A stretch of 64,000 nt of DNA from Sulfurisphaera ohwakuensis (GTDB lineage: Archaea; Thermoproteota; Thermoprotei_A; Sulfolobales; Sulfolobaceae), in assembly GCF_009729055.1 (NCBI RefSeq), contig NZ_CP045484.1:930001-994000 (forward strand). Reading direction: 5' to 3'. Position numbers and translations under genes: made by a program. A model generated the notes under the pieces. It did no database searches, had not been told where the DNA came from, and saw nothing but the letters and a program-made list of their open reading frames with translations. Position 1 is the stretch's first letter. The number at the start of each line of letters is the position of its first letter. Positions 18,859 to 61,770 of the stretch are shown here, in pieces.

Positions 18859-18876
18859 AGTTCAAAAAAATGAACT
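18859..18876. promoter_or_regulatory. Perfect operator-like palindrome before the peptide gene
   Basis: AGTTCA-AAAAAA-TGAACT is an exact inverted repeat with a 6-base spacer. It lies 53 bases before the start codon of the 56-residue peptide gene and just before a TATA-like run (attattaaatatta, about 18883-18897). It shares sequence and spacing with 17529-17546. Apart from this, 18576-18928 is AT-rich without a gene. Confidence 0.7.
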
Positions 18877-18928
18877 CATAACCATTATTAAATATTAGAA
18901 TCTAGGATAAAATATTGAGGATAGAGGT

Positions 18929-19099: not shown

Positions 19100-19134
19100 A
19101 AATATATAAACTGGACACTATCAGGTGATATATA

Positions 19135-41371: not shown

Positions 41372-41667
41372 TTCCTCAACCCTTTAGGCTTTATAGCTTG
41401 AGCAATCTGCCATAATATATCCTCCGGGTTTTCAATATTTAATGGAGTCATGTTAGAAGCTATTGAGGTTAGTCTCCTTCTTTCATCAATTAAACTTCCA
41501 CCTTCCTTTAATTCAATATTTATATTATATTCCTTCAATATTTCTTTTAAAATTAAGAGAGAATCTTCTCTTGAAACTTTTATAGGATATATTATCTTTT
41601 TTGTTTCCTCTTCTATGTCTTTTATTATTTTATCAACGCCTAAAAAACGAAATAAAAAATCACTCAT
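41350..41667 (-). CDS. Small unknown hydrogenase-operon protein
   Basis: A 105-residue charged, mainly helical protein (MSDFLFRFLGVDKIIKDIEE..., ending GLRKCQKSDQ). It overlaps isp2 by 4 bases (ATGA) and the next gene by 22, so it is part of the operon. No family is recognised. Confidence 0.6.
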   Translation of the reverse strand: MSDFLFRFLGVDKIIKDIEEETKKIIYPIKVSREDSLLILKEILKEYNINIELKEGGSLIDERRRLTSIASNMTPLNIENPEDILWQIAQAIKPKGLRKCQKSDQ

Positions 41668-42941
41668 ACCTTTATACCCCTATCTATAAGTTCAGTGAAA
41701 TACACTACTTTAAAATCAGCTTGCTTCTCTCTAACAGCATTTTCTAAGGATAACTTACAATTTGGATCAAACACTATAACACTTTTACCTCCCCATCTCT
41801 TCAATTGCGTAATTACGTAATTCCTTACTTTTCTAACTATATCCTTCTTCTCTTCAATCAATTCTAAATGATGCGGACAAGTATATAGTTTGTCTGATGA
41901 AGGACTCTCCTTAGGTTCAATAAATTGTGGTGCAGTTAACCTTAATATCTCTCTTGGTGGTTCTTCTACTCCTCCTAATCTACTCAGGAATTCTGAATAA
42001 TGAACAGTTGTAGGTGAAGCTATGTCAGCTTTTTCTAACTTTACTTTTCCTTGTTTATACATATCATATACGTTCTTAGTTAAATGTTCAACTGGTAATG
42101 GAGGATTCTCTTTTATACTTTTAGGTCCTTGCCATCTTAACCAGAAATAGGCAGAACCATCAGTAGTTATTATTTTCTTCACGTTTAATTCCTTAGCAAC
42201 ACTATATGTGTTTTCTAATAGCTCTCTACCTGTCTCAAAATCTCCTACGAAATATGCATAGTATCCAGGATCACTGACTTTAGAACTAACTGTTACACTT
42301 ATTTTTAATTTATTAAATATATTTAACACTGAACTTAATACATTATTATCTTGAATTTCTAATGGTGATGGAACAAATAATACCTCACTACCTTTCTTAT
42401 CAACATTAAAACCTATTTTGCTGGCAATTTCGCTCCACTTACCCATATCTATGCCCAAAGCGTTCTTTATCTCTTTAGAATTCTTAGACAATTTTTCAGC
42501 ACTTTCGTAATTAAATCCAGAGTAATGAAGTATTCTTCTCATTAAAAGTGCTGTATACCAATTAGGTACTTCCATTGGAGATGTAAAAGTACATGCACCA
42601 CATGCGGTACAATCATATGCAGATTCCGTCCAATGAGTAAACTCTTTACCACTTATTTTTCTCAGTCTTAGGTACCTAGCTACTATACCATAAGCAGTAT
42701 AGAACATTGAATATAATTTGTTAATTTCATAGGTCCTCCATGCTGGGACATCATAAAATTTCTTAGTCTCTAACCAGAATGGACAACTATAGCTACATAT
42801 TCCACATCTCATACAATTTTCAATACCCATTACATCAGAGGGCGATAGTTCATCTAGGGATCTTGAAGCTAATTTTCTATTTATTTCAATCTTACCTTTA
42901 CTCACTCTAAATCCCCCACATTTAAACTCTTCTTTTACCAT
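41664..42941 (-). CDS. isp2: Isp2, HdrD/DsrK-like iron-sulfur protein of the hydrogenase
   Basis: A 425-residue cytoplasmic-side Fe-S protein thought to carry electrons between the hydrogenase membrane arm and quinone or a sulfur enzyme. Its first [4Fe-4S] motif 'CMRCGICSYSCPF' is complete. The second, 'CTACGACTFTSP', has Ser in place of the fourth Cys. The C-terminal half has the HdrD-like fold, but typical CCG motifs are replaced by 'TCPHHLEL' and 'FDPNCKLSL'. The start is taken at 42941 (MVKEEFKCGG); the open frame continues 25 codons upstream into isp1. It overlaps isp1 by 20 bases. Confidence 0.85.
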   Translation of the reverse strand: MVKEEFKCGGFRVSKGKIEINRKLASRSLDELSPSDVMGIENCMRCGICSYSCPFWLETKKFYDVPAWRTYEINKLYSMFYTAYGIVARYLRLRKISGKEFTHWTESAYDCTACGACTFTSPMEVPNWYTALLMRRILHYSGFNYESAEKLSKNSKEIKNALGIDMGKWSEIASKIGFNVDKKGSEVLFVPSPLEIQDNNVLSSVLNIFNKLKISVTVSSKVSDPGYYAYFVGDFETGRELLENTYSVAKELNVKKIITTDGSAYFWLRWQGPKSIKENPPLPVEHLTKNVYDMYKQGKVKLEKADIASPTTVHYSEFLSRLGGVEEPPREILRLTAPQFIEPKESPSSDKLYTCPHHLELIEEKKDIVRKVRNYVITQLKRWGGKSVIVFDPNCKLSLENAVREKQADFKVVYFTELIDRGIKV

Positions 42942-43809
42942 ATACACTACCAGCAAACCCTTTCTGTACATAATACCAGAACATATGGAAGGCTTTACTA
43001 AATGGTGTATACCCAATAAATATTCCCACTAGAGCTATATGTAAACCATACCAGTTTGCTTGATTTGGTATTCCTAGATATGGGAATGACCAGTCGTATG
43101 CAGCTCCTAATCCAGTAACTATGATTGCAGCTAGTAAGATTAAGAATACATAATCTCCAACACTACTTATAACTCTATGCCTTGTTGCGTCATCAATGAC
43201 CCTAGTTACTATATAACCTACTAGACCGGCTAAAGCCAATAATGCCATAAAACTACCATTAACAATTACAGATAATATACCCCATGGGGATATGGTATTT
43301 GTAGCTACCTCGGCTGAATTCCACGCACCTACTGGATTTAAGATACCACCGTGGGTAAATGAAGAGGAACCTAAAACGCCTAACTGATACCCAGATGTAA
43401 ATGATTCTGGAACCGAAGCTGGCATCAGCCAACCTAGAATATTTTGAATTCCAGTTAACCCACTAAAGATATAATTCCATGCTATTATATGAATACCCAC
43501 TACTATAATTAATCCTAGTATAAAGATATGGTTAAAGATCGTCTCTATAATAAGTAGCGGATCCCTTCTCGCTGCTCTTCCAAATGGTCTAGGAATAGCA
43601 CTTACAGCTTCTTTAAACTCCCTAGTAAATCCTACTTCCCCTTTAACGCTAGCTCTTGAAAATAAAAATTCTCTAGCTATTCTATAAATTACGCCGAACA
43701 CAAAAAATACTATTCCCAATGGAAAAATTACGTTTAACCCCCACCAATAAAGGCTTAATGGAGTGCTTGGACCCCCGTTAGCACCTATTGCCGCATGAAC
43801 TACTATCAA
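42922..43809 (-). CDS. isp1: Isp1, cytochrome b-like membrane subunit of the hydrogenase
   Basis: A 295-residue NarI/DsrM-like protein with five transmembrane helices (for example VIFPLGIVFFVFGVIYRIAR, ILGLIIVVGIHIIAWNYIF, FMALLALAGLVGYIVTRVI, YVFLILLAAIIVTGLGAAY, LHIALVGIFIGYTPFSKAF). Histidines in helices (IFNHIFIL, VGIHIIAW, GLHIAL, AFHMF) can bind two b hemes. It takes electrons from HynS on the outside and passes them to the quinone pool or Isp2. It starts one base before the end of hynL. Confidence 0.9.
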   Translation of the reverse strand: MIVVHAAIGANGGPSTPLSLYWWGLNVIFPLGIVFFVFGVIYRIAREFLFSRASVKGEVGFTREFKEAVSAIPRPFGRAARRDPLLIIETIFNHIFILGLIIVVGIHIIAWNYIFSGLTGIQNILGWLMPASVPESFTSGYQLGVLGSSSFTHGGILNPVGAWNSAEVATNTISPWGILSVIVNGSFMALLALAGLVGYIVTRVIDDATRHRVISSVGDYVFLILLAAIIVTGLGAAYDWSFPYLGIPNQANWYGLHIALVGIFIGYTPFSKAFHMFWYYVQKGFAGSVYGKRRV

Positions 43810-46071
43810 TTACTTCACCCTCATTGCAAATTTGTAGAATGCCTTTATAGATTCACTTAGGTCTATTGGAGCACCTAGTGTTATATATCTTACTTTCCCA
43901 TTGGGTAATACTACATGTACACCACAAACGAAACATGGGTCAAATGATCTTAATGTAGCTGCAAATTCAAACCCATCCCACTGTTCTAATGGAGTTACCG
44001 TTAGTTTTGGTACTCCTTTTATGTTATACCCAGGATTTCCTTGAATAACTTCCTCAAATGTTCCAGCACCATCATTTTGCGCTAATAACGGATATGGCGA
44101 TATTGTACCAATAACATCTGAATAGGAGTTCTTAACTCTAGGACCTGAATTAACAGTTGTTGGTTGTATTTGTTGTGGATTTATAGTAGGTACTGTTGGA
44201 CCACTACCTAACGCTATTACTTCTGAGTGCCATTGAGCTCCTCTAGGAGCTTCTTTAAGCCCAACACCTATTGCAACATCTGTATTAGTATTCTTCTTAT
44301 AAGTCCAATCATATTGATTACCTCTACTTACAGCAGTCTGTCCATTTTTGATATAATTAACTGCTGAGAACCAAGCAATCCAGGCTCCCCCAGCATCTAA
44401 TGCACATGCATGAGCTCTTGCTCTCATTCTCTCTACAGCGTTAGTTGTTACCGTAATACTTCCATTAGATAACTTAGATGAAACCATCCATGGAGATACA
44501 TATTTAATTTCTATCTCACCTTGTAATTCCTGTGGTAAAGCTATTCTTGATGAGATAGTTTGTGGTAAATTCCATGTAACTGACTGTTCGTTACTATTAT
44601 ATTGTATTTCTATTCCAGCAGAAGAATATACAGCAGTATAAATTGGTTCTGGTGCTTGTGGCTGTAATACTTGAGCCCACATTACTGCTTGTGGATCTGC
44701 TTCAACATTAAAGAAATAATTCATAACAGGTTTATGACCCGCATAGGGAACAAGCCTAGGTGACATTGCCCAACTATACTTATTTTGTGAATTGCCACTA
44801 CCAAATGGATACCCTCTAGCTAGTGGATTTGGTATAGTCCATTTCCTCCATGGATGATAAGGACTTACAGAATTACCAATAGGATCTTGAGAAATACCAG
44901 ATACTTCTGGTGGAACTTCTGAATTATTTACCCAGTCTTCATAAAATGATGACTCAACAAATTCTCTCATTCCTAAAGTAATATCAATTAGACTATTAGT
45001 CACTAATTCTGGTGGTGAATTGGGACTCTTTTGTATAACTAAACCAGGTTTTACTACTCTTGCCCTTCCCCATGCACCCATATTCTCATAAGTTGCATCA
45101 TAAGGCATGACGCTTGTAGAAGACGGCGTGACACTAGGAGCTTCAGAGACATCGCTTTGTCCGTAACATAAGAAATTACCCGGCCTATTACCCATTTCAG
45201 CAAAACCTAAGTTGTTAAAGTATTTATCATAATATGCTTGTACACCGAAAACATTACCATAATCATTTAGGAACAAGTTTAATACTTCCCAATAAGCCAC
45301 TTGCTTCTTTGCATATGCAGTACCATCAACTAACCTATATAAATATCTTTGTAGGTTCTCAACAGTAGCTGGAACTCCTATTCCACCTGGGACCATAGTT
45401 ATGGGGTGTGGAATTCTTAAGTAGTATAACAATTCTGCCTCGTGCATTATTCTCCATACATAGGCTCCTTCTAACCATATAGCACCTATTATTGGCACTA
45501 ATCCATCCATTATATCAGCTACAGTCCTCATTGTAACTCCACTAAACTTTAACTCACTAGGTGCTCCATTTGGAAAAGCCTCAGAATATTCTAAAACCTT
45601 ACTTATAGGTGTTTGCTGTGCTAATTGGTAAATTTCTGGGGGATAATAACCAGCAATCTTAAAGAACAATGAGCTCCAATCTGGTCCTCCTAAAGCTGTA
45701 AGATGAGTTGTAGCATCATAAACCATTGCAGCATCGTTAGATAACATGATAGTCTCTAGTCCTAATGGTGGTGGTGCATATCCTCCCATTGCCATTTCTT
45801 GTGCTATTCTCTCTATGAACTGATGATGTTCTCCACATATTCCACATTCTCTTGAGCTTAACATTATTACATCTGGTGCTGGCTTATTTCTCATAAAGAT
45901 TTCAAATCCTCTAAACATTCCCGCTCCAGCATACGCTTCAGTAGCTCTTACCTGATTCTCTCCTTCTATACTTACACTAACTTGAATACCTAACTCTGGT
46001 TTAATTCTAACAATTGGTTCTATTACAACTGGTTTAGTCCAATCATATTTAAATAGATAGGAAGAACCCAT
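43810..46071 (-). CDS. hynL: [NiFe] hydrogenase large subunit, group 1g-like
   Basis: A 753-residue catalytic subunit, longer than the usual 550-600. All four Ni-ligating cysteines are present: C76 and C79 in 'RECGICGEHHQ', C713 and C716 in 'FDPCFVCGVH'. After His719 there is a 34-residue tail to be cut off by a maturation protease. It should be exported folded, together with the Tat-signal-bearing HynS. The extra length lies in the middle (about 330-560), with many Pro/Asn-rich loops that may protect it in the acidic periplasm-like space. It oxidises H2 for respiration on sulfur, O2 or Fe(III). Confidence 0.95.
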   Translation of the reverse strand: MGSSYLFKYDWTKPVVIEPIVRIKPELGIQVSVSIEGENQVRATEAYAGAGMFRGFEIFMRNKPAPDVIMLSSRECGICGEHHQFIERIAQEMAMGGYAPPPLGLETIMLSNDAAMVYDATTHLTALGGPDWSSLFFKIAGYYPPEIYQLAQQTPISKVLEYSEAFPNGAPSELKFSGVTMRTVADIMDGLVPIIGAIWLEGAYVWRIMHEAELLYYLRIPHPITMVPGGIGVPATVENLQRYLYRLVDGTAYAKKQVAYWEVLNLFLNDYGNVFGVQAYYDKYFNNLGFAEMGNRPGNFLCYGQSDVSEAPSVTPSSTSVMPYDATYENMGAWGRARVVKPGLVIQKSPNSPPELVTNSLIDITLGMREFVESSFYEDWVNNSEVPPEVSGISQDPIGNSVSPYHPWRKWTIPNPLARGYPFGSGNSQNKYSWAMSPRLVPYAGHKPVMNYFFNVEADPQAVMWAQVLQPQAPEPIYTAVYSSAGIEIQYNSNEQSVTWNLPQTISSRIALPQELQGEIEIKYVSPWMVSSKLSNGSITVTTNAVERMRARAHACALDAGGAWIAWFSAVNYIKNGQTAVSRGNQYDWTYKKNTNTDVAIGVGLKEAPRGAQWHSEVIALGSGPTVPTINPQQIQPTTVNSGPRVKNSYSDVIGTISPYPLLAQNDGAGTFEEVIQGNPGYNIKGVPKLTVTPLEQWDGFEFAATLRSFDPCFVCGVHVVLPNGKVRYITLGAPIDLSESIKAFYKFAMRVK

Positions 46072-46072
46072 T

Positions 46073-47422
46073 TTAACTCACCCCCTTAGCTTTAGGAACC
46101 ATGGGTTTACCTCTTCTTCTAGATAAGAAATAAGAACCTACACCTACAACTATACCGGCACCTACAGCTGCAGCTAATAAAGTTGTAGATGGTAATGTTG
46201 GTGCATTAGGTGGAGCATAGAAGGGTTCATATAAGTCTGGAAATCCCGGTGCAGTACAAGCAATACATACACCCCCTCTAGTACATCCACCAACACCACC
46301 AACCCAACCTAGACGTGGTGCTGGACTATTAGCTTCTGTACCTTTACATCCTAAGCTATATGTACATTGTGGATCTCCGAAATTCTTCGCAAATATACCC
46401 TGAGCGAAGAATCCAGCTCTGGGGCAATTTTGATGAGTTTCGTTACCGTAGAAATATTTTGGCCTATTAAATATGTCAATAGTTGAAGATGGTGGAGGAG
46501 CTAATCCTCTAACATATAAAACTCCAGCAACTAGAGTTCTCATTATCCAGTCACCCGCTGGAGGATCTGCTGCTATGGCAACTATTGGTTGTCCTAATTT
46601 ACTTTGCCAATGATAACTAGGCCCTGGATATGCAGTATTATACGGAGAATTAGTAGCAGAATATATATCTTCATCTATAACTTGCTCACCTCTAAAGTAA
46701 CCTAAGTCTTTCTCGTAAACTTCATGTAAATATGCTGGAAAACCTAATATTCCCCTATAAGGATCATCCAACATGCCCATTGCATATGTTGGGGATCTAT
46801 ATCCTAATCCATTAGTTGTAGCAGGAATTCCTCCATAGGTTGCACAAGCTCCAGTAGCATAAACGAGTGCAGCTCTCTTCATTAAATTAAACACAAATTC
46901 ATCGCATAATAGTACATGACCACTTGGTGTTCTTCCAGCAGAACACCAGAAAGAATCTGATGGTTTTTTATAATATAGTCCAAATTCATCAAACATTGTA
47001 CCTTCTACTACCAATACGTAAGGATCAAATACTCCAGCTAATGCGGCTTCCATTGTAGGATATGCCATATCATCTTGAGGCATTAAGATTGGGTGATAAA
47101 CTAAGTTTATGTTTCCAACATTCGCTATTGATGGACTTCTTAATGTTATTGGCTGTAAATTAAATGTTACTTGTGTTACTACATCTTCTACCGCTGGGTT
47201 CATCGCATCTATAAATGCTATAGTATTTCCTCCACACCATCCGTTCCCAGTCCATATAATGTTTATTGGATCTGATAATGCATCATTAGCCATGTTAAAT
47301 AAGTCCTTCCATGTTAATCCTTTTTCAACCATCCATGCAGTAAGCCCAGTTATGCCAGCTAATTTCATGAAGTCTCTTCTGGTTATCCCTACCTTAACTT
47401 GTTTAGGCTTCGGCTCTTCCAC
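46073..47422 (-). CDS. hynS: [NiFe] hydrogenase small subunit with Tat signal and C-terminal anchor
   Basis: A 449-residue Fe-S subunit, GTG start with a GGGG ribosome-binding site; a TATA-like element (about 47459-47470) lies upstream, making this the operon's first gene. The Tat signal is RRDFMK (residues 15-20). The proximal-cluster motif is 'GNGWCGGNTIAF' (Cys63, and Asn66 where a second Cys is normal), 'GACATYGG' is usual, but the normal G-C-P-P is 'AADPPAGDW' (Asp for Cys). Distal/medial ligands appear in 'HQNCPR', 'CTYSLGCKG' and 'GCTRGGVCIACTAP'. A helix at about 415-436 followed by RRRGK anchors it in the membrane. Confidence 0.95.
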   Translation of the reverse strand: MEEPKPKQVKVGITRRDFMKLAGITGLTAWMVEKGLTWKDLFNMANDALSDPINIIWTGNGWCGGNTIAFIDAMNPAVEDVVTQVTFNLQPITLRSPSIANVGNINLVYHPILMPQDDMAYPTMEAALAGVFDPYVLVVEGTMFDEFGLYYKKPSDSFWCSAGRTPSGHVLLCDEFVFNLMKRAALVYATGACATYGGIPATTNGLGYRSPTYAMGMLDDPYRGILGFPAYLHEVYEKDLGYFRGEQVIDEDIYSATNSPYNTAYPGPSYHWQSKLGQPIVAIAADPPAGDWIMRTLVAGVLYVRGLAPPPSSTIDIFNRPKYFYGNETHQNCPRAGFFAQGIFAKNFGDPQCTYSLGCKGTEANSPAPRLGWVGGVGGCTRGGVCIACTAPGFPDLYEPFYAPPNAPTLPSTTLLAAAVGAGIVVGVGSYFLSRRRGKPMVPKAKGVS

Positions 47423-48594: not shown

Positions 48595-49848
48595 ATGAAC
48601 TTTCTTTCTTGGAATCAAGCAATTAATGAGAATAAAGATTTAATTTTACTTTTCATGACAACGAGTTGGTGTGAAACTTGTGAAGAACAAGAAAGAGAAT
48701 TAGAAGGTGTATATAATGAGAGAATTAGTATAGTTAAAGAAGATGCTGATGAAAGAATAGATTTAGGAATTCGCTATACACCCCAGATATATCCTTGTAT
48801 TAGTTTTATACATAAAGAATCAGTTCTAGGCGGAACTTACGGTTTAGTAAAAAGGGAAAAAATTCACGAAATGATTAAACAAGCTTTAGACCTAATTGAT
48901 AAAAAAGGTAAAATTGTAAACCCACCAAAATTATCTTATAGGCTTGATAAGTTTTCTCCGCAATATGCTTTAAATCACATACTGAAGGTTTGTGAAGGTT
49001 ATTTCGATTGGAAGGAAGGAGGCTTTGAAAAGGAGCCAAAATACGTTTCTCCAGAAGTTTTACAACTATTTTTACGTTTTAAAGATTATTATCATAAATT
49101 AATGGTAGAAGTAACATTAGATAATGCTATTGAATACTTATGGAATGATGGCTTCTATTTATTCTCTAAATCTATTGACTGGAAAGAACCTTATACTGCA
49201 AAACTACTAGATTATAATGCTGAAATGAGTAAGACATTATTTAAAGCTTATGAGGTTTTAAAAGAGGATACATACTTAGATTATGCTATAAAAACTGTAG
49301 ATTGGATGATAAAAAGAAGAGGAAAGTCAGGGTATTTTATTAATTGTGAATTTCAAGGAAAAGAAGACAAAAGGCCATTTTTAAATGTGAATGCCAATGT
49401 AGGTGATGCTTTATTGCAAGCCTATAAATTTACTGATAATAAGAAGTACTTTGAAATAGCAAAGGATTTGGAAGAAAAATTGATAGTTTCACATAGACTT
49501 GATAAAGAGACTACTCCATATCTAATAGACATAGCTTCTTATCTGAGATTTTTATCAAAAATTGACCAGAATAAAGCGAGAAAGTTACTTGTGATTTTAA
49601 ATGATTATGAGGGAACAGAAGCATATTATGACGTAACATTAAAATATGCTAAGGATAACTTAATTGGCCGTTATTATTTCTTATACGATAATTCAATTCT
49701 AGCCGAGACATTCATAAATCTAGGTTTTTTAGATAAAGCTAGAAAAATAGTTGACTCTTTCCTCAATTCGTATGGTATTTTCACTTACTTTAATCAAGCT
49801 AAATACGCGTTACTCTTAGGTGAGCTATATGGTTTATTCCCTAACTAA
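48595..49848 (+). CDS. Thioredoxin-domain protein of the YyaL/DUF255 type
   Basis: A 417-residue protein. Residues 1-105 form a thioredoxin-like domain with 'FMTTSWCETCEEQERELEG' (redox-type WCETC) and a Pro in 'RYTPQIYPCISF'. The rest (about 115-417) is helical with repeats like the six-hairpin glycosidase-like part of YyaL/SPATA20 proteins ('GGFEKEPKY' is diagnostic). It is shorter than YyaL (about 650). Possible role in disulfide chemistry or cofactor handling for the exported hydrogenase. It is divergent from the membrane protein at 47503. Confidence 0.7.
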   Translation: MNFLSWNQAINENKDLILLFMTTSWCETCEEQERELEGVYNERISIVKEDADERIDLGIRYTPQIYPCISFIHKESVLGGTYGLVKREKIHEMIKQALDLIDKKGKIVNPPKLSYRLDKFSPQYALNHILKVCEGYFDWKEGGFEKEPKYVSPEVLQLFLRFKDYYHKLMVEVTLDNAIEYLWNDGFYLFSKSIDWKEPYTAKLLDYNAEMSKTLFKAYEVLKEDTYLDYAIKTVDWMIKRRGKSGYFINCEFQGKEDKRPFLNVNANVGDALLQAYKFTDNKKYFEIAKDLEEKLIVSHRLDKETTPYLIDIASYLRFLSKIDQNKARKLLVILNDYEGTEAYYDVTLKYAKDNLIGRYYFLYDNSILAETFINLGFLDKARKIVDSFLNSYGIFTYFNQAKYALLLGELYGLFPN

Positions 49849-50409: not shown

Positions 50410-51345
50410 ATGCGTTTACGAGGATTACTACTCATACTCTTTATTGTTATTCTTTTGTTAAATTTTACTTCTCATGCGAGTTTATACGAGATAAATCATT
50501 CACTCATGATAATCAATAAGAAAAACCTGGTAATTTCTGGGATTAACGTAATTAATGGGAATATAACAATTATAAACTCCAGTAATATAATTATAAAAGA
50601 TGATAGTATTTACAACGGCTCTTATTTTGGAATATTTGTATATAACTCAAAAAATGTGACTATTGAAAATAATCATATAGATCGTTCTTATTATGATGGT
50701 ATTTCTATCAGAAAATCACAGAATGTGACTATTGAAAATAATATTATAGCTAATAATTCTAACGGTAACGGAATATCTGTATGGGATAATAGTAATCATA
50801 TAATTATAGCCAATAATATTCTATCAAATAATGGTTATGGAATTTTTATTCTTATGAGTTCTAATGTTACAATGTTAAATAACAGTATAGTTAAGACTTA
50901 TTACTATGCAATTTATCTTTATCAAGCTAACTTCATTAAAATAATAAATAATACAATCTTGTTATCAGACATAGGATTAGAAATTGAATATGGGAGTTAT
51001 ATCCAATTAGAGTTCAATGTTATAAAAAATGATTTAGTAGGTGTTTATTTGGGAGATGGCATTGGAAGTCTTAATCTGATTAATAATATAATTCAAAACT
51101 CTCGGTACTTTGGCGTACTTATTAAATATTACCCTAATATATTTAATTATAATAAAAATACATTTATAAATAATACAGCAAATATTTTCTATGAATTTAA
51201 TAATACATTACCAGAACAAACTAACGGATTAGTACCTCCTATAACAATTACCAGCAAGTCCAACATTTTGTTCAACTATTCGTATCTTACTATCCTTTTA
51301 TTAGTTATACCAGTCATCTATTTACTGAGGAGAAGAAGAAAGTAG
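50410..51345 (+). CDS. Secreted right-handed beta-helix repeat protein
   Basis: A 311-residue protein with a signal peptide (LLLILFIVILLLNFTSHA) and about ten turns of a parallel beta-helix. The turns show the NosD/PbH1 pattern: 'SKNVTIENNHIDRSYYDGISI', 'SQNVTIENNIIANNSNGNGIS', 'SSNVTMLNNSIVKTYYYAIY'. A C-terminal membrane helix with RRRRK anchors it. It is close to NosD-type proteins that help insert metals into exported enzymes, so a link with the exported hydrogenase is possible; it could also bind polysaccharide. A TATA-like sequence sits about 26 bases upstream, giving a leaderless message. Confidence 0.75.
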   Translation: MRLRGLLLILFIVILLLNFTSHASLYEINHSLMIINKKNLVISGINVINGNITIINSSNIIIKDDSIYNGSYFGIFVYNSKNVTIENNHIDRSYYDGISIRKSQNVTIENNIIANNSNGNGISVWDNSNHIIIANNILSNNGYGIFILMSSNVTMLNNSIVKTYYYAIYLYQANFIKIINNTILLSDIGLEIEYGSYIQLEFNVIKNDLVGVYLGDGIGSLNLINNIIQNSRYFGVLIKYYPNIFNYNKNTFINNTANIFYEFNNTLPEQTNGLVPPITITSKSNILFNYSYLTILLLVIPVIYLLRRRRK

Positions 51346-51555
51346 TCTTCTCATTTCGATCTCATATTCTATCATTTCTTTAAATTCCTCTTCAGAAATC
51401 TTGCTTACTATCATCCCGTAGCTAACTACAACGTAATCTCCTTCTTTTACATCATCAACATTATTTATCACCGGCTCTATTACACCATTACCATAATCTA
51501 CAAAAGCAATCATTCCTTCAATTTGAACAACTTTCGCAGGTAAACTTATACACAT
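51322..51555 (-). CDS. hypC: HypC-family chaperone, copy 1
   Basis: A 77-residue HypC/HybG/HoxL-type protein. It starts MCISLPAKVVQIEGMIAFVD, with the essential Cys2 that carries the Fe(CN)2CO group between HypD and the large subunit. Ala replaces the usual Gly in MCxxxPG. It is divergent from the large-subunit-like gene at 51599 with 43 bases between them, which matches the pairing of HoxL with HoxV in Ralstonia. The end overlaps the beta-helix gene by 24 bases in the opposite direction. Confidence 0.88.
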   Translation of the reverse strand: MCISLPAKVVQIEGMIAFVDYGNGVIEPVINNVDDVKEGDYVVVSYGMIVSKISEEEFKEMIEYEIEMRRLLSSSPQ

Positions 51556-51598
51556 AATATAATAATGTTTTTTATACTTTTAAATCTTCATATATTTT

Positions 51599-52762
51599 AT
51601 GAGTTTATATGATTTAGAGATAATTGATTTAGACGTTTATGTTAGTGAAGGAAAAATAGTTAGAGCTAGATGTTCTGGGAATAAAATAAGAGGTTTTGAA
51701 AAATCATTTATTGGAAAAGACGCAAATACTTTCTATGAAATAATCCCTAGAATCTTAGCTACTTGTAGTCAATCTCACGTTTACGTATATATAAAGCCAC
51801 ACATTAATACAAAAGTTACGGAATTACTTATGGCTTTAGAAATAGTAGATAGTCACTTAAAACATCCCTATGCCTATTGGTTTCCACACTTAATTAAAAA
51901 CGAAGAATATTCTTTCCCTTCGGGCTCAAAATTCAAAAAAGTAAGTTTAATATCTAGACGAATAAAAGAAATAATGGAAAAAATTGGGGGTAAATGGCCA
52001 CATACTGATTATTTAAGGAAAGAAAAAGAGATTAAGTTTAATAAAGAGGAATTGAAAGACGTAATAAATTTCGTTGAAAGCGAGGTTTTAGGAATGAATA
52101 TTGAGGATTTCTTGAATGTAAAAAGATTAGAGGAACTTAGGGGTGATCTTAAGTTATTAGTTGAAAAGGGAATTGACGCACTTAGTTGGGGCTTCGGATT
52201 AAGGGACTATTTAGTAGTAGGCTATCCATTTAATGGTAGTTTTGATTTTGGTAAAATTGAAGATAAGGGTATTGAAGTAATGTACAATAATAAGAAAGTA
52301 GAAGTAGGACCTTTAGCTCAGGCATTAACTTTTGATGAACTAATAAAAACTTACTTTAATAAATATGGACCTTCACCATTACTTAGAGAAATTGCAAGGA
52401 TTAAAATTTTAGCAAAATTATTAAGTGACATTAAAGAAATTGACATTCATACTGGTACATTTGTAGCTAATGAGGGAGAATTTATATCATTTGCGGAATC
52501 AATTAGAGGTTCATTAATACATAATTATGAAATTGAAGGAGGCAAGATTATTAAGTATAAGATAGTTCAACCTACAACTTTTATAGCTTCCCCTGGTGGA
52601 GCATTAGAAAGTGCAGTAGTAGGTTTGCCTATAAGAAATCCTAAAGAACCTATTGAGTTGTCATTAACAGTCTCGTCATTAGATACTTGTTTTATAACTA
52701 GAGTTAATGTGTTTGAAAACGAAAAAATTGTAACTACAAAAAGAATTGGTGGTTTTTGCTAA
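51599..52762 (+). CDS. Hydrogenase large-subunit-like protein lacking Ni ligands (HupK/HoxV-like)
   Basis: A 387-residue paralog of [NiFe] large subunits. The N-terminal motif is '[13 protein letters not shown]' (Cys56), where a working subunit has C-x-x-C-x-x-x-H. The C-terminal motif is '[13 protein letters not shown]' (Cys364), where D-P-C-x-x-C-x-x-H is normal: the second Cys is Thr367 and the His is Asn370. The conserved 'GPLAQAL' segment is kept. So one Cys of each pair remains, as in the assembly scaffold HupK/HoxV, and it cannot hold a NiFe centre. The protein ends with GGFC, a further Cys. It may be the platform on which the Fe(CN)2CO unit is built or checked. It converges on hypF with a 4-base overlap. 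Confidence 0.75.
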
Positions 52763-54990
52763 AAGAAGGTAAGATAGTATGATTGTCCCAAAGCTATTCC
52801 ACCATCGCCAGCTGGAATCCTTCTTGGAGTTAATACTTCTACTCCTTCAGAATTATCTATAATCCCTTTAAGAATATACTCATTTACAGCTGCACCGCCA
52901 GATACTAAAATTCTTTCGGGGTTTAGTTTAAGAGAAGCTTTAACTAAGCTCTCACCTAGCTTATATTGAACAGTAATTGCCAAATCATTTATAGGCTTAT
53001 CTCTATTTTGTAAGAGCCATTTAAATATTACTGTAGTATCTATTTCCTCTCCAACAATCGGTATTTCAAGGCTATCTAAAATCTTTCCACCTCTAGCAGA
53101 AGCCTCGAGTTTCATTGCTGGTTCTCCTTCATAAGTCCTATATTTACATATTCCTAGAAATGCTGATACAGCATCTAGAACCCTACCGGTGCTTGACGTA
53201 AATAATGTTGACCTTTTACTAATCTTTTCTAGGATTTCTAATTCTCTATCGCCTAAACTAACAATTCTCCTAATTTCATCCCAGTTCATAAAAGTTGATA
53301 AAAATAATGCTAACATTCTTTCTGGTTTAAGAGCATTTACATCACCTCCTACATAAGGAATATACTTTAAATGATATTTTCTCTCATATCTTTCCCTATC
53401 AAATTTAATTATCTCACCTCCCCAACCATTCCCATCATCACCATAACCTATACCATCAATAGCAATTCCAACTCCTTCTTCATAACCATAATCAGCAGAA
53501 ACACTTAATATATGAGCATAATGATGTTGAATTTGTACTAAATCTGCTGAAAATCTTTCAGCTAACTTATGAGCTAAATAAGTGCTCTGATACGCTGGAT
53601 TCTTATCAGCAATAATTACTTTAGGTTTAATGTTATACCATGAAATTAAAAGAGAGAGAGCTTTATCAAGTTCGTTTAAAGTTTCTAACTCGTCAGTATC
53701 TCCAATATATTGAGTTAAGACTACTTTATCATCAAAGGCTAAAGCACCAACATTTTGTAACTCTGCGCCAACAGCAACTATAGGTTCTTTGACTTTCCTT
53801 TTTAACCTTATCCATGTTGGTGCATAACCTCTACTTCTTCTTAGCATCATTATTCTACCAGAAGATACACGAACAACACTATCATCTACTCTATTTGCAA
53901 TTTCTCTATTGTGATAAAGAACATAATCCACAACGTCTTTGAGTTTCTTTTTTACACACTCCTCACTTATGCACATAGGAAAACCATGTTTATTCCCACT
54001 GGTCATAATAAGTATATTATTTTTTACATTGCTTAACAGTAAATAATGAAGGGGAGTATAATATAAGAAGAACCCTTCTCTATCTAGCCCTGGTGAAATA
54101 TGTTTAGACAACTGATATGGTTCTCTTTTCTTAAGAAGAACTATAGGTCTTTGAGGAGATGTTAATAAGCTTCTCTCGATAGACGATATATAAGTATATT
54201 TTTCAATTATATCTAGATTCAAAGCCATTACGGCAAAGGGTTGTTGAGGCCTATTTTTTCTTTCTCTTAATTTTAATACTACATCATCATCAAAGGGATT
54301 TGCAGCAATATGAAAACCTCCAATCCCCTTTACAGCTACTATATATCCTTCGTTTATTATTTTCGCTGTAAGCTCTATAGGATCACCGTTAACTTTTTCA
54401 CCATCTATAGTTTCAAGATATAAACGTGGACCGTCCCTATTACAACTAATTCCTTGAGCATCAAATCTTCTCTCATTATTAGGATCATAGTATTCATGCT
54501 TGCACTCATCGCATAATGGGAAATGCTTCATTGATGTGTTCTCTCTATCATATGGTAATTTGTACATCATAGAAAATCTAGGACCACAATATGCACAACT
54601 ATTAAATGCGTACTTATACCTTCTAGGATTATTAGGGTCTAACACTTCTTTCATACATTCATCACATACTGCGAAATCTGGGGGAATTTGACTAGGAGTT
54701 CTTATCTCATTTCCACTAGCTAGAATTTTAAAATCATTAAATGATTCAAATTCACTTTCTTCTATCTTAATTTCCTCTATCTCTGCTACTGGTGGTAATT
54801 TTGAAAAAAGTAATCTCATAAATTCAGCTATCCCTTCTTTATTACCCTCTATACGTACTTCTACCTCACTTCCACCCAAATTTCTTACATAACCTTTAAC
54901 ATTAGCCTTAGTTGCAATTCTATAAATAAACGGTCTAAATCCCACGCCTTGAACAATCCCGCTTATGATAATTCTGTAACTGTACTCCAT
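52759..54990 (-). CDS. hypF: Carbamoyltransferase HypF
   Basis: A 743-residue protein that turns carbamoyl phosphate into a thiocarbamate on HypE for cyanide synthesis. Domains in order: acylphosphatase (residues 1-90, '[16 protein letters not shown]'), two zinc fingers ('CDECMKEV...CAYCGPR' and 'CDECKHEY...ISCNRDGPR', about 108-185), a YrdC-like domain (about 200-390, '[17 protein letters not shown]' and '[12 protein letters not shown]'), and a Kae1-like carbamoyl transferase ('[13 protein letters not shown]', '[18 protein letters not shown]', '[12 protein letters not shown]'). All are complete; length is normal. Confidence 0.96.
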
Positions 54991-55337: not shown

Positions 55338-55844
55338 ATGGCGGAAAACTATTTTGAAGATGAAGATTATAAGGAGGGAATAAGAAAGCTTGCGGAAATT
55401 GTAATTTACCTTAATAGTAGCGGCATTCTCGATTCTATACTAGATTTCTTAAAATCTGATAAACTGATAAAAATAATTAAGTCGCCTACGTTTAAGGCAG
55501 TAATAGAGCTCTTAGGTGATATACAACAAATGATAGATTCTGGTGAGGTTAGTTCAGATGATTTTATAAATGGAATTATAGCAATTGCGAAACATCTTGA
55601 TAAACTGGGTAAAATAGTGAGTACTTTAGATAAACATGGCGTTCTTGACGTCGTTACTAACGGATTATCAAAAGCCGCAGAGAAAATTATCAAGGAAAAT
55701 AGTGAATCTAATATAGTCCAACTTTTAGCATCATTTGATGATCCAGATGTAAAAATGACTTTAGCATATTTACAATATATGTTAAAAGAACTAGGAAAAT
55801 CTACAAGACCTTTAATAGAAAAAGGTAACAATCAACATAAGTAA
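55338..55844 (+). CDS. DUF1641-family protein
   Basis: A 168-residue helical protein with the DUF1641 pattern ('YLNSSGILDSILDFLKSDKLI', 'LDKLGKIVSTLDKHGVLDVVTNGL', 'DDPDVKMTLAYLQYMLKELGKSTRPL'). Members lie beside formate dehydrogenase and hydrogenase genes in bacteria and archaea and are thought to be accessory or membrane-recruiting subunits; the exact role is not known. It converges on the HxlR-type regulator with a 13-base overlap, and is probably part of the group 2e hydrogenase system. Confidence 0.8.
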   Translation: MAENYFEDEDYKEGIRKLAEIVIYLNSSGILDSILDFLKSDKLIKIIKSPTFKAVIELLGDIQQMIDSGEVSSDDFINGIIAIAKHLDKLGKIVSTLDKHGVLDVVTNGLSKAAEKIIKENSESNIVQLLASFDDPDVKMTLAYLQYMLKELGKSTRPLIEKGNNQHK

Positions 55845-56210: not shown

Positions 56211-57725
56211 CTAAATAAGTTTTAACATGTGAACATTGCATACCATACATGCATCATGACTCCTAACTATGTGATGAACTTCTATAGGATTATTAACATC
56301 AGAGACTTCAGTACCTATTAATGCTAAAGCCATATGACTCTTATTACCTAAAGGGTCTTCAGGGCTCATATTAATTTGTGTAGGAGTCACAATTTGATAA
56401 TTCAAAATTTTCTCATTCTTTACTACAACCCAATGTCCTAAAGCACCCCTAGGTGCTTCAACCAAACCATAACCCATACCTTCCTTAACCTCTGAAGGCT
56501 TCTTGTATGTAGGTTTACCGAACTCAAAACTATTTAGCTCTTGAAGCATCAACTCGTTATAAATTAAAACCCTAACTAATCTAGCTATAACTCTAGAAAG
56601 AACACTAGGTCCTATCTTATCTATAAGATCTAAAATTAGTGGATTACCAGACACAGTTAACATTGCTAAAGCACCTGCTTCCGGAGCTATAAGTTTACCA
56701 TCCAGTTTATATCTAAAGCATTTAGTTAACGAATATTTGTTTTTATTCTTCTCATCTAAATTGGGATTCGTCTCACCCTCGAATGGGTGTAAACCCGCTT
56801 GATCTCCCTTACTATAAATGTAATAGGAAGAGTTTACGAACTCTAGAACATTACGCTGATCAAACTCTTTGTACTCTTTCTCTTTTGCAAAATAAATTCC
56901 AGGTTTAAAATACTTCTTTCTTGGAATACCAACATATTCCTCAATTGGTAAATGACCATAACTCAACATTATTCCAGAACCATAACCTAATTTATGCCAG
57001 TTAGCCTCTAATCCAAACTCCAGTATTTTAGCTAAATCTCCCTCCTTGTAATCTTCAGCCCATTGTAGTAAATCATTATAACTTTTAACAGTATCTAAGA
57101 ATTGATCTATAGGACCTCCTAAAATTACCTTTTCTAGATAATTCCTCTTTATATCTAACAGTATGGAGATAGCTCTCTGAATTTCATTTGGTAAAGGATC
57201 AGCTGTTATACCTCCTGGAACAATAGCTGAACCATGAGGCCATTGACCACCAAATATAGCATAAACCTCAGTATATTTTTTCGACCATCTAAAACATTCC
57301 TTATAAGACGAACCTTGAATAGGAGCCCATCTCCTTATAACTTCTTCAAAATTCGCATAATCACGGTATTTATTATTTAGAACATCGATCAAAAACATAA
57401 AATAAGTATGTCTAAGATCATTCTGACAAGTCTCTGCCATACTTAATACATTTCTTAACCTTATTGCGTTAATTGGAACTTCAGCATTGTAGATCATGTC
57501 AAGGGCTGAAGCTGATGCATATAAATGCGAGGCACCACAAATACCACAAACTCTAGGAGTAATAACCAAAGCGTCTAAAGGATTCTTCCCTTTGAGAATT
57601 ATTTCTATACCTCTAAACAATCTTGAGATAATTTTGGCATCAACAACTTTATTTCTCTCAAATTTCACCTCAACATCTAAATCTCCTTCAACCCTATTAA
57701 ATGGAGAAATTATTTTACTACTCAA
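56211..57725 (-). CDS. [NiFe] hydrogenase large subunit, group 2e-like
   Basis: A 504-residue catalytic subunit with all four Ni-binding cysteines: C60 and C63 in 'RVCGICGASHLY', C493 and C496 in 'HDACMVCNVH' (Ala for the usual Pro). After His499 only MLKLI follows, five residues instead of the usual 12-30. It pairs with a small subunit lacking a Tat signal, so the enzyme is cytoplasmic, as in group 2e enzymes of Metallosphaera and Acidianus relatives that oxidise H2 at low levels. The start overlaps the small-subunit gene by 8 bases. Confidence 0.92.
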   Translation of the reverse strand: MSSKIISPFNRVEGDLDVEVKFERNKVVDAKIISRLFRGIEIILKGKNPLDALVITPRVCGICGASHLYASASALDMIYNAEVPINAIRLRNVLSMAETCQNDLRHTYFMFLIDVLNNKYRDYANFEEVIRRWAPIQGSSYKECFRWSKKYTEVYAIFGGQWPHGSAIVPGGITADPLPNEIQRAISILLDIKRNYLEKVILGGPIDQFLDTVKSYNDLLQWAEDYKEGDLAKILEFGLEANWHKLGYGSGIMLSYGHLPIEEYVGIPRKKYFKPGIYFAKEKEYKEFDQRNVLEFVNSSYYIYSKGDQAGLHPFEGETNPNLDEKNKNKYSLTKCFRYKLDGKLIAPEAGALAMLTVSGNPLILDLIDKIGPSVLSRVIARLVRVLIYNELMLQELNSFEFGKPTYKKPSEVKEGMGYGLVEAPRGALGHWVVVKNEKILNYQIVTPTQINMSPEDPLGNKSHMALALIGTEVSDVNNPIEVHHIVRSHDACMVCNVHMLKLI

Positions 57726-58698
57726 GCCAATTCCCCCTATCTTCTTTTTTCTTTATAAGTGGCTTTACTAAAAATTCTGGTGCTGAAGCTCTAGCTACTG
57801 CTGAAAGTGTTGTATAAGCGCCTCTGCTAACACCAAGTGGTAATCTCTTCGGTATCCCGCTTCTGTTCTTCTCTGTAACAAAGAAATTAAATGTTGGGAA
57901 ATCAAATTCAGTACAGCCAAAACATGGTGTACCGACCCTAGTTTTGCTACTTTGCTTATTCCATAAGATAACATTACAAGGACTCTTAGTATATGAACCT
58001 TTACAACCTAAATCAAAATATAAGCATCCTTCCCTATGACCAAATTCCTTAAGAGCTACTTTATAAGAGAAATATATGTTCCTAGGACAACCAAATTGTG
58101 TTGTTGTACTATAGATAATTTTTAATCTTTGATATTCGTCCAGATCCTCTTCTGTTAGTTTATCATTAATAATCATAGAAAGAGTGGTAATTATCCATTC
58201 AGGATGAGCAGGACATCCTGGGATGTTTATTACAGGCAAATTTTTTCTAGATCTAAAATCCTTACCAAGAAATCCTCCCTTTTCCTTTTTATGAAATTGT
58301 AGCCCGGTAGATTCTGTAGGATTTGGTTCTGAAGCAGGAACTCCTCCAAAACTAGCACAATCTCCCACGGCTACGACGTAATTAGCAACTTTAGATATTT
58401 CATTAACCCAGTCTTTCATTGGTCTACCAGCAAACATATTAAATTTCCCAGAACCATTAGGACCTAATACTACGGTACCCTCAAAGATAAATATATCTAG
58501 ATTGATTTTCATATCAACTATATTGTTTAATAATTCTCTGACTTTATCACCAGACTCTAAAGACAAAGAGGGATGCCATAATACTTTTACATCATAATAA
58601 CTGAAGAATTCTAATACGTCAGGATTCTCTGCATTTAGGAATGAGAGAGTATTGCCACCACATGCACCGCCTTGAAGCCATAAAATTGTTTTCATCAT
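57718..58698 (-). CDS. [NiFe] hydrogenase small subunit, group 2e-like, cytoplasmic
   Basis: A 326-residue Fe-S subunit without a signal peptide or membrane helix. The proximal-cluster ligands are 'LQGGACGGNTLSF' (Cys13; Asn16 where a Cys is usual), 'VGDCASFGG' and 'NIPGCPAHPEW'. The distal cluster has 'TQFGCPRN' with Gln at the normal His position, a feature also seen in cyanobacterial uptake enzymes, and 'CLYFDLGCKG'. The medial cluster has 'SPCN' and 'TPCFGC'. First gene of the unit with its large subunit and HxlR regulator. Confidence 0.93.
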   Translation of the reverse strand: MMKTILWLQGGACGGNTLSFLNAENPDVLEFFSYYDVKVLWHPSLSLESGDKVRELLNNIVDMKINLDIFIFEGTVVLGPNGSGKFNMFAGRPMKDWVNEISKVANYVVAVGDCASFGGVPASEPNPTESTGLQFHKKEKGGFLGKDFRSRKNLPVINIPGCPAHPEWIITTLSMIINDKLTEEDLDEYQRLKIIYSTTTQFGCPRNIYFSYKVALKEFGHREGCLYFDLGCKGSYTKSPCNVILWNKQSSKTRVGTPCFGCTEFDFPTFNFFVTEKNRSGIPKRLPLGVSRGAYTTLSAVARASAPEFLVKPLIKKKEDRGNWLE

Positions 58699-59032: not shown

Positions 59033-60100
59033 ATGAGAGATAATATGAGTGATCCTAAAAGTGTAATAACTTTGCTTCACGGAGCTGGAGGAGCTTACAT
59101 GCACAATCTCATTAAAGAGTACTTTCTTCAGCTATATGACGGCTTTGGAGAAGTTGGGCTAGATGTTCTAGATGATGCGGCTGTTATAAATGGAGTAGTA
59201 TTTACTACTGATTCCTACACTGTAAGACCTATATTTTTCAAAGGGGGAGATATTGGAAGATTAGCAGTTAGCGGAACTGTAAATGATATTGCAATGATGG
59301 GGGGAGATCCAATAGCTCTAAGCTTGGCAATAGTAATGGAAGAAGGTTTCCCAAAATCAGATTTAGCCAGAATAGTGGAAAGTATAAAGAAAACTGCTGA
59401 AGAAGCCAATGTGCATATAGTTACTGGTGACACAAAAGTTATGGAAAAAAATGCATTAGATAAAATTGTTATAAATACCTCTGGAATTGGCGTAGCATCT
59501 GAAGAACTAAAACACAACTTTAACGTGTTGAGGAAAAATAGGAATGTTAAACATGAATGGTTAGTTCCAATGAATATTAGAGATGGAGATAAAATAATAG
59601 TTTCAGGAACTATAGGGGATCATGCAATAGCGATCCTATCATCTAGGGAAGGCGTAGGATTTGAGTCAAATATTCAATCTGATGTGACTCCATTAAATAA
59701 AATGATGAAAACAGTTCTAGAAGTTGGTGGAGTAGCTGATGCAAAAGATCCTACCAGAGGTGGATTAGCAGATTTATTAAATGATTGGGCTGAAAAATCA
59801 GGTTTAGGAATTTATATTAGAGAGAGTGAAATACCGGTAAAAGAAGAAGTTAGTAGTGCAATAGAATTCCTCGGATTAGATTTGCTTGAATTAGGAAATG
59901 AAGGAAAAGCCGTCTTAGCTGTCTCGCCTGAAATGGCTAGAGATGTTTTAGAAGCTCTCCGTAGTACACCATGGGGTAAAGATGCAAATATTATAGGAGA
60001 AGTTAGGAAGGATATTGAAGGAGTAATATTAGAAACTGTAATTGGAGGTAAAAGATTAGTAACTAGACCTACTGGAGACCCCGTACCCAGAATTTGCTAA
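59033..60100 (+). CDS. hypE: Carbamoyl dehydratase HypE
   Basis: A 355-residue PurM-like ATP-dependent enzyme that dehydrates the C-terminal thiocarbamate to a thiocyanate, giving the CN ligands of the NiFe site. It has 'LLHGAGGAYMHNLI', the ATP-binding 'LDDAAVINGVVFTTDSYTVRP', 'VSGTVNDIAMMGGDPIALSLA' and 'KDPTRGGLADLLNDWA'. It ends PRIC, the functional C-terminal cysteine motif. An alternative start at 59045 is possible. It leads the hyp operon. Confidence 0.96.
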   Translation: MRDNMSDPKSVITLLHGAGGAYMHNLIKEYFLQLYDGFGEVGLDVLDDAAVINGVVFTTDSYTVRPIFFKGGDIGRLAVSGTVNDIAMMGGDPIALSLAIVMEEGFPKSDLARIVESIKKTAEEANVHIVTGDTKVMEKNALDKIVINTSGIGVASEELKHNFNVLRKNRNVKHEWLVPMNIRDGDKIIVSGTIGDHAIAILSSREGVGFESNIQSDVTPLNKMMKTVLEVGGVADAKDPTRGGLADLLNDWAEKSGLGIYIRESEIPVKEEVSSAIEFLGLDLLELGNEGKAVLAVSPEMARDVLEALRSTPWGKDANIIGEVRKDIEGVILETVIGGKRLVTRPTGDPVPRIC

Positions 60101-60111
60101 AGGTGATTTTA

Positions 60112-60366
60112 ATGGCTAAATTGGTTTGTATGATTTGTGAGCATGAGGAAAAAGTACCAGAACACTGTGGAATAGAAATGGAGTACGTTTTAAAAGGAAC
60201 CTTTAGAAAGATAGAATATCTTAAATGTAAAGTATGTGGTAAAGAGCTTGTAGTCCCAAAGCATTGTGGGATTCCTATGCTTTATGTTGATGAAGATTAT
60301 CTACCGGTTAGTAAGTTAAGTAAGACGGAAATTGAGGAGATGAGAAAACTTTATTCTGGTGAATAA
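60112..60366 (+). CDS. Double His-Cys-Gly metal-binding protein in the hyp operon
   Basis: An 84-residue protein made of two similar halves: CMICEHEEKVPEHCGIEMEY and CKVCGKELVVPKHCGIPMLY, each with C-x2-C-x8-(H)-C-G-x-x-M. Four to six Cys and two His could bind one or two Zn or Fe ions, rubredoxin- or zinc-ribbon-like. The start ATG at 60112 is preferred over an earlier in-frame TTG inside hypE. Rubredoxin-like HoxR/HupI proteins protect hydrogenase assembly from O2 in bacteria; a similar task here is a guess. Confidence 0.7.
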   Translation: MAKLVCMICEHEEKVPEHCGIEMEYVLKGTFRKIEYLKCKVCGKELVVPKHCGIPMLYVDEDYLPVSKLSKTEIEEMRKLYSGE

Positions 60367-60368
60367 GA

Positions 60369-60647
60369 ATGTGTGTGGCTTATCCGGGTAAAATAATAGA
60401 AATTAACGGAGAATTCGCTAAAGTAGATTTTGGTGCTGGTACAATTAGAGATAATATACTAATAAGTTTAGTTAATGCTAAAGTTGGTGATTATGTTCTA
60501 GTCCATGCTGGTTATGCAATTCAAGTAGTGGATGAAGAGGAGGCTAAAAAAACTATTGAAATGTGGGAAGAAATGACAAAGGAACTAGATGAGGAACAGA
60601 AAAAGAGAGATCTTTATGAAGCTATAGGGAGTGGTGGAAATGAGTGA
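60369..60647 (+). CDS. hypC: HypC-family chaperone, copy 2
   Basis: A 92-residue HypC that starts MCVAYPGKIIEINGEFAKVD, with Cys2 and the Pro-Gly turn of the family. The core 'ISLVNAKVGDYVLVHAGYAIQVVDEEEA' is typical. It is followed by a charged C-terminal extension of about 25 residues. It lies 2 bases after the metal-binding gene and overlaps hypD by 8 bases; it is the general partner of HypD. Confidence 0.95.
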   Translation: MCVAYPGKIIEINGEFAKVDFGAGTIRDNILISLVNAKVGDYVLVHAGYAIQVVDEEEAKKTIEMWEEMTKELDEEQKKRDLYEAIGSGGNE

Positions 60648-61770
60648 AGATCTTCCGAAAATATTAAAATATTATAGAAATCCTACATTAGCAAAGAGTA
60701 TTACAGAGAAGATTAATGAATTAGCAAGAAAGATAGAAGAAAACATTGCAATAATGCATGTCTGTGGTTCCCATGAATGGACAATAACACATTATGGTAT
60801 AAGAGCATTATTACCCGAAAATGTCCAAGTGAGGGCTGGACCAGGATGCCCAGTATGTATAACTCCAGCTAAAGATATTGATGATGCTGTAAAATTGGCC
60901 TTAGACGGTGTAGTAGTTATGACATATGGTGATATGAGTAGATCAAAAGGAACTAAAATGAGTTTGCAAGATGCTAAAGCATTAGGTGCTGATGTGAGAA
61001 TAATTTATGGAGTCCAAGATGCTGTCCAAATGGCTAGAAAGGAACCAAATAAAGAGTTCGTATTTTTCGCTGTAGGAATGGATACTACAGCACCAGCAAC
61101 GGCTTATGAAATACTTTCTAATGTCCCACCAAACTTAAGTTTTCTAGTTTCTTATAGATATACGCCATCAATACAAGGCTCTGTTATGGAGTCAAACGTG
61201 CTGGGAATAGACGCATTTATCTCTGCTGGGCACTCAGCAACTATAACTGGCATGAAACCCTACTACGAGTACTTTTTAAGGACTAAAAAACCTGTAGTAT
61301 TTTCTGGTTTTGAACCGCTGGACATTTTACTTTCAGTGTATATGTTATTAAGACAAATATATGAGAATAAACCCAAATTGGAAAATGAGTATACGAGAGC
61401 TGTAACTTGGGAAGGAAATGTTAAAGCTCAAACTGCTATGGAGAAAGTATTTGATCTTGAGGACGGATATGTAAGAGGAGTTGCTGTTTTTCCTAAGGCT
61501 GGATTTAGGCTTAAGGAGGAATTTAAACATGTAGATACTAGGGAAAGATATGGGTTAAAGAAGGGTATATCCACTGAGGATGAGTATGTAACTGGGGCCA
61601 GATGTGGAGAAGTAGTAATGGGGCTAATTGACCCACCAGAATGTCCATTATATATGAAAGTTTGTAAACCAGAAGATCCTAAGGGCGCACCAATGGTATC
61701 CCAAGAAGGAACTTGTTGGATATGGGCTCATCATAAAATTACTAATTTAGTACCTAAATGTAAGAGGTGA
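60640..61770 (+). CDS. hypD: Hydrogenase maturation protein HypD
   Basis: A 376-residue scaffold, started at ATG 60640, that assembles Fe(CN)2CO with HypC. Family motifs: 'IMHVCGSHEWTITHYGIRALLP' and 'VQVRAGPGCPVCITPAKDID' (thiol-redox CxxC), 'TYGDMSRSKGTKMSL', 'FFAVGMDTTAPATA', 'GFEPLDIL', and C-terminal [4Fe-4S] cysteines in 'GARCGEVVMGLIDPPECPLYMKVC' and 'GTCWIWAHHK'. Complete and of normal length. Confidence 0.96.
   Translation: MSEDLPKILKYYRNPTLAKSITEKINELARKIEENIAIMHVCGSHEWTITHYGIRALLPENVQVRAGPGCPVCITPAKDIDDAVKLALDGVVVMTYGDMSRSKGTKMSLQDAKALGADVRIIYGVQDAVQMARKEPNKEFVFFAVGMDTTAPATAYEILSNVPPNLSFLVSYRYTPSIQGSVMESNVLGIDAFISAGHSATITGMKPYYEYFLRTKKPVVFSGFEPLDILLSVYMLLRQIYENKPKLENEYTRAVTWEGNVKAQTAMEKVFDLEDGYVRGVAVFPKAGFRLKEEFKHVDTRERYGLKKGISTEDEYVTGARCGEVVMGLIDPPECPLYMKVCKPEDPKGAPMVSQEGTCWIWAHHKITNLVPKCKR

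Follow-up and report, generated by a model that had tools for sequence, protein, structure and literature searches.

A HoxV-like large-subunit paralog and its adjacent HypC in a hydrogen-metabolism region of the Sulfolobaceae

It is an open question why hydrogenase maturation should in some organisms depend on a dead large subunit, and the role of the bacterial HoxV class was listed as unresolved in a 2025 review (PMC12134894). An archaeal form of the same question is raised by the 64,000-nucleotide stretch of DNA analysed here (the window, G000:C1:930001-994000 of a 2.80-Mb Sulfolobaceae genome), which carries a large hydrogen-metabolism region and, within it, the following features:

51599..52762, + strand: HoxV-like large-subunit paralog, 387 aa (ORF list, PF00374 match, alignment)
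51322..51555, - strand: HypC_a, 77 aa (PF01455 match)
51556..51598: AT-rich divergent intergenic region of 43 bp between HypC_a and the paralog, probably holding overlapping promoters

The first-pass annotation of this DNA had described the two genes as divergent and 43 bases apart, which is exact, and had read them as an archaeal HoxV/HoxL-like pair accompanying a group 1g hydrogenase. What, then, is the paralog, how far does the bacterial comparison carry, and which hydrogenase does the pair serve?

With PF00374 the paralog scores 54.9 bits (cut-off 25.8), and when a better match to a non-hydrogenase family was looked for, an outcome that the annotation had named as counting against its reading, no other family came above cut-off. 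The protein has 387 residues, where the window's catalytic subunits have 504-753, and no small subunit of its own adjoins it. In a 64-sequence alignment, whose motif columns line up cleanly, C56 corresponds to L1 Cys2 and C364 to L2 Cys1, so that one Cys of each nickel-binding pair is indeed kept; L1 Cys1 has become Leu and L2 Cys2 has become Thr in all orthologues compared. The accompanying claim that the motif His is lost holds for the L2 His, which is replaced by N, E or K, and fails for the L1 His, which is kept as the invariant H60. The four Cys ligands plus L2 His that characterise a catalytic [NiFe] large subunit are not all present, and the CN-pocket residues R303, P325-T326 and D362 are kept; since the Fe-ligand pocket is retained and there is no complete Ni site, the paralog would hold Fe(CN)2CO without nickel. 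L2 Cys1 is a terminal Ni ligand in the catalytic enzyme, not an Fe ligand, so that Fe coordination in the paralog is not self-evident.

The window paralog contains four Cys, of which C56, C364 and C387 are invariant in the eight full-length orthologues; C387 is the last residue, and the truncated copy in one further genome (G131) also ends in Cys. An AF2 model (pLDDT 83.8, pTM 0.86) has the group 2a Huc large subunit (7utd) as its nearest PDB fold (TM 0.73 by query length) and shows a C-terminal hairpin (366-373/376-383), and, judging from this predicted secondary structure, C387 probably returns to the side of C364 and may replace a missing thiolate. This invariant C-terminal Cys387 is a new feature, absent from HoxV/HupK.

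The pair sits between the SUL2 and group 2e genes of the window, and its surroundings, together with the group 1g cluster elsewhere in the genome, are:

41664..43809, - strand: SUL2 Isp1 (42922-43809) and Isp2 (41664-43016), downstream of the S and L genes
43810..46071, - strand: SUL2 (HsuL2) large subunit, candidate client (gene order as SUL2 in PMC11018855, tree)
46073..47422, - strand: SUL2 small subunit with Tat signal
52759..54990, - strand: HypF (TIGR00143, 748 bits), convergent with the paralog, 4-bp overlap
55338..55844, + strand: DUF1641 protein of the 2e system, similar to HysM (PF07849 match weak, under the cut-off)
56211..57725, - strand: group 2e large subunit HysL, candidate client, with the full four-Cys set
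57718..58698, - strand: group 2e small subunit HysS (name after PMC11018855)
59033..60100, + strand: HypE (TIGR02124)
60369..60647, + strand: HypC_b, canonical (Cys2 and His), next to HypD
60631..61770, + strand: HypD
63023-63253, - strand: HypC_c, a HypC paralog whose N-terminal Cys is missing
L138:599-10594 (G000:C1:1153.6-1163.6 kb): true group 1g cluster, S-Isp1-Isp2-L, with its own HypD, HypC, HypE and protease

The window has three large subunits, those of SUL2, group 2e and, running off its right end, SUL1; a fourth, that of group 1g, is encoded about 0.18 Mb beyond the window. The hydrogenase with the Tat signal had at first been taken for group 1g; its gene order S-L-Isp1-Isp2 and its place in the tree identify it as SUL2 of PMC11018855. 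The HysM-like gene is encoded on the strand opposite to hysLS and adjoins hysL or an HxlR gene across the compared genomes; a DUF1641 gene also stands upstream of a Thermus group 2a cluster (L173). Among other neighbours, a thioredoxin-domain protein (48595-49848, +) stays close to the SUL2 block wherever the pair occurs, in 9/9 genomes. A small Cys-rich ribbon-like protein (60094-60366, +), encoded between hypE and hypC_b, has no Pfam family above cut-off and is kept in every genome of the set having the block, and a class II aldolase (61784-62497, +; PF00596, 156 bits) follows directly after hypD. The order of the hypE-ribbon-hypC-hypD block and the aldolase is kept in eight genomes, and a role of the aldolase in CO-ligand supply is only a guess.

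Could the paralog be nothing but a group 2 large-subunit duplicate that is degenerating without function, as its nearest profile (2e) and the loss of two catalytic Cys might suggest? An order scan of 197 genomes, a family scan of 31 and a profile scan of 398 Thermoproteota brought up nine genomes with an orthologue, all of them Sulfolobaceae and belonging to four genera, with identities of 48-94%. The reading frame is open in eight of the nine, being split by an insertion sequence in G131; 105 columns are invariant across the four genera, and the paralog has a dN/dS of 0.07-0.12, HypC_a one of 0.07-0.10. In 9/9 genomes the paralog is flanked by a divergent HypC_a, with an intervening ORF in two and a spacing of 43-44 bp in six, and the two stay together while HypF, HypC_c and the SUL2 block change place. 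HypC_a orthologues (at least 59% identity) occur in exactly the nine paralog genomes and in no other of the 31 Sulfolobaceae. Purifying selection contradicts decay, which we consider hardly credible, and the nine orthologues in four genera, the dN/dS values and the constant HypC adjacency argue that the pair is not a product of chance. A Burkholderiales candidate (L005) was rejected as a chance peptide match in a chemoreceptor-like protein, and weak matches outside the Sulfolobaceae (L014, L019 and others) proved not to be orthologues: they are catalytic subunits in which the CxxC motifs are complete.

The partner is equally distinctive. HypC_a matches PF01455 at 61.3 bits and is one of four HypC copies in the genome, the others being HypC_b, HypC_c and the group 1g copy. 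The N-terminal Cys and the conserved His of HypC act in Fe(CN)2CO handling. Both residues are present in HypC_b and the 1g copy; HypC_a keeps Cys2 (MCIS/MCLS in 9/9 genomes) and has Ser45 in place of the His, again in 9/9; and in HypC_c the His is present and the N-terminal Cys missing (the sequence begins ..YDPYD.A) in 8/8 genomes compared, this copy being still present in G175, a genome without HypD. Like HoxL and HupF, HypC_a is an extra HypC paralog tied to a pseudo-large subunit and keeps Cys2, and like HoxL it has lost the His, which Rhizobium leguminosarum HupF keeps. The proposed likeness to HoxL therefore stands for these residues and does not extend to the C-terminal extension of HoxL/HupF, which HypC_a does not have: its 77 aa stop where a canonical HypC stops.

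How far the paralog itself resembles its bacterial counterparts was assessed against 13 proteins, namely HoxV from pHG1 (L035:7381-8532) and 12 HupK/HoxV from other plasmids. HoxV of Cupriavidus necator and HupK of R. leguminosarum are likewise large-subunit-like proteins of about 380 aa without a small subunit of their own, accompanied by hyp genes and an extra HypC and associated with hydrogenases made in air. All 13 keep L1 Cys2 and L2 Cys1 and have lost L1 Cys1; L2 Cys2 is also lost in nine and kept in four, and the L2 His is present in none. R509, P531-T532 and D574 (HyaB numbering) are invariant in both groups, which also share an Ala or Ser after the lost L1 Cys. The differences are no less clear, in that the archaeal paralog has D[TS]C and PTTF where HoxV/HupK have the signatures DPC and PTEWNF. 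HoxV is reported to carry a nickel-free Fe(CN)2CO and to work together with proteins of the HypC family, and HupK to bind HypC/HupF (PMC12134894, PMC3534401). In most proteobacteria the HupK gene belongs to an operon in which it lies between hupF and hypC, near hypA (PMC3534401), whereas the paralog, although it adjoins HypC in 9/9 genomes, is divergent from it, and hypA/B are located elsewhere.

The shared Cys pattern, the Ala or Ser after the lost Cys and the similar length would all be explained if the paralog were a true member of the HoxV/HupK family by common ancestry, its function being then unchanged. Trees leave room for this: the AU test rejects neither a paralog+HupK clade (p 0.569) nor paralog+2e (0.396) nor paralog+2a/2e (0.439), both groups standing on long branches, and the tree constrained to paralog+HupK has a likelihood 3.8 above that of the free tree. 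The profiles point the other way. The paralog HMM scores 105-128 bits on 2e, 86-119 on bacterial group 2 and only 14-39 on HupK, so that the profile search suggested by the annotation does not support membership in the HoxV/HupK family; the HupK HMM gives 152 for the group 2b subunit HoxC, 121 for an Ideonella group 2 subunit and 33-78 for the paralogs, below many catalytic subunits. Profile-profile scores of 259.8 for paralog-2e, 137.9 for paralog-HupK and 85.9 for HupK-2e again favour 2e, yet place the paralog nearer to HupK than HupK is to 2e, with the qualification that length affects them, since short group 3 subunits also score high. By profile, then, the paralog is not nearer to HoxV/HupK than to catalytic subunits; its best fold match is also with Huc, and PTEWNF and DPC are missing. 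No HoxV/HupK model of NCBIfam fires, HoxV itself matching only large-subunit models, and in a limited search of the open literature no HoxV/HupK named in archaea was found.

With the profiles against membership and the trees undecided, we file the paralog as a protein that works like HoxV rather than as a member of the HoxV/HupK family, which is the sense in which the earlier HoxV label, borne out in the two-Cys pattern, is retained. Common ancestry with HoxV/HupK appears somewhat unlikely to us, and a separate derivation from a group 2 subunit is the more likely course. The nearest relatives by profile and fold, the group 2e/2a large subunits HysL and HucL, differ from the paralog in having all four Cys, the L2 His and a small subunit, and in being about 120 aa longer. 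Bacterial HoxV is itself, by sequence profile, nearest group 2b. As a tentative proposal, the archaeal lineage might have invented a HoxV-type Fe(CN)2CO carrier on its own from a group 2 large subunit, reaching the two-Cys solution of bacterial HoxV and adding both a HypC without the conserved His and a C-terminal Cys that would serve either as a replacement ligand or as a thiol for transfer.

What can be seen directly is homology, a ligand pattern, conservation, purifying selection, a private HypC and co-occurrence with 2e and SUL2. From these we propose, with a probability of roughly two in three, that the pair is an accessory to [NiFe]-cofactor assembly serving the 2e and/or SUL2 enzymes, in which the paralog, alongside a HypC of its own, acts in the manner of HoxV as a carrier or scaffold of Fe(CN)2CO. 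Following the known pathway, HypC_b-HypD would make Fe(CN)2CO, which would be handed to the paralog docked with its private HypC_a; the paralog would hold it by C56 and C364, and perhaps also by C387, together with the Arg/Pro-Thr pocket, and would pass it to the apo large subunit before nickel insertion, the direction of this transfer being presumed, and the pair might also give protection against O2. That last point could be the whole of its function, the paralog being a storage protein or O2-shield in which Fe(CN)2CO or HypC_a is kept while conditions are oxic, and not an obligatory relay. Storage or protection was proposed for some HoxV/HupK in the 2025 review (PMC12134894), and the pair is tied to hydrogenases of aerobic-type hosts; sequence does not separate storage from the carrier reading, and we judge it distinctly the less probable. 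More improbable still is a regulatory pseudo-enzyme that never carries Fe(CN)2CO and titrates HypC, or HypA/B, tuning which hydrogenase matures: a dead large subunit offering a HypC-binding surface could compete with clients, and HypC_a is private to it, but titration has no need of the invariant pocket Cys pair, the CN-pocket Arg, the Pro-Thr or the C-terminal Cys, and the cluster already has an HxlR-type regulator.

On the carrier or scaffold reading, a dead large-subunit copy and a specialised HypC look to have been kept together in hydrogen-oxidising hot-acid archaea, where they would aid the building of the metal centre of hydrogenases compatible with air. Such a large-subunit-like assembly aid has so far been described only from bacteria, as far as a limited search of the open literature goes, and an archaeal counterpart, sharing the ligand pattern and paired with a private HypC, makes it possible to test independently which of the residues and partners are important. 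The hosts oxidise H2 in hot acid; for A. brierleyi at least, this extends to trace levels.

The remaining question is that of the client. The expected tie to group 1g dissolves on comparison: 1g occurs in six Sulfolobaceae, three of which lack the pair, and among the nine pair genomes it is present in three and absent from six. In 28 genomes of other families of the order, searched for both, 1g is present and the pair absent. The correlation with 1g that had been anticipated in related genomes is accordingly not seen among these 28 or the 31 Sulfolobaceae, and the 1g maturation set, which in this genome has, like the paralog, a HypC of its own, includes no such paralog. The broader claim, of a tie to hydrogenases of aerobic-type Sulfolobaceae, is upheld with other enzymes: 2e and SUL2 large subunits are found in exactly the nine pair genomes (2e frameshifted in G131), that is, in 9/9 genomes with the pair against 0/22 without it (Fisher p 5e-8; p 0.0014 among the 13 genomes having any hydrogenase), these p values being optimistic because the genomes are related.

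Two genomes are natural losses. G114, a natural knock-out, has only a 2e remnant and fragments of the SUL2 block; it lacks the SUL2 large subunit, the paralog and HypC_a and retains intact 1g and SUL1 and two HypD. G175 has only 2e remnants and no SUL2 large subunit, paralog or HypC_a. From the state of G114 and the distribution of 1g it follows that the pair goes with 2e, SUL2 or both, and not with 1g or SUL1; the likely clients differ from the group 1d enzymes of HoxV/HupK. The pair is also a practical marker, lost where 2e and SUL2 are lost while intact 1g and SUL1 persist without it, and it should be included in heterologous production of SUL2 or 2e enzymes. In G131 the hydrogenase region is in decay (L123:11652-14266 and L123/L124 around 17612-19124): HypD is absent, the paralog is split and hysL is frameshifted, and SUL2 is still open.

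Between the two candidates, the perfect co-occurrence of 2e and SUL2 means that distribution does not separate the client. The paralog lies about 0.7-4.3 kb from 2e as against 5.5-20 kb from SUL2, nearer to 2e in every genome, and because its profile is also nearest 2e, the 2e enzyme is our first guess. In A. brierleyi, SUL2 makes up 97.6% of hydrogenase subunits during aerobic growth on H2; 1g is the anaerobic enzyme, and the 2e enzyme is the least abundant (PMC11018855), so that a helper chiefly of 2e would play only a small part. The tie of the pair to O2-exposed hydrogenases is only a correlation, the O2 physiology being taken from PMC11018855. A further large subunit of 604 aa in another genome (L122, G050:C1:100260-101948), about 41% identical to 1g, groups in the tree with a Streptomyces 1h-type subunit.
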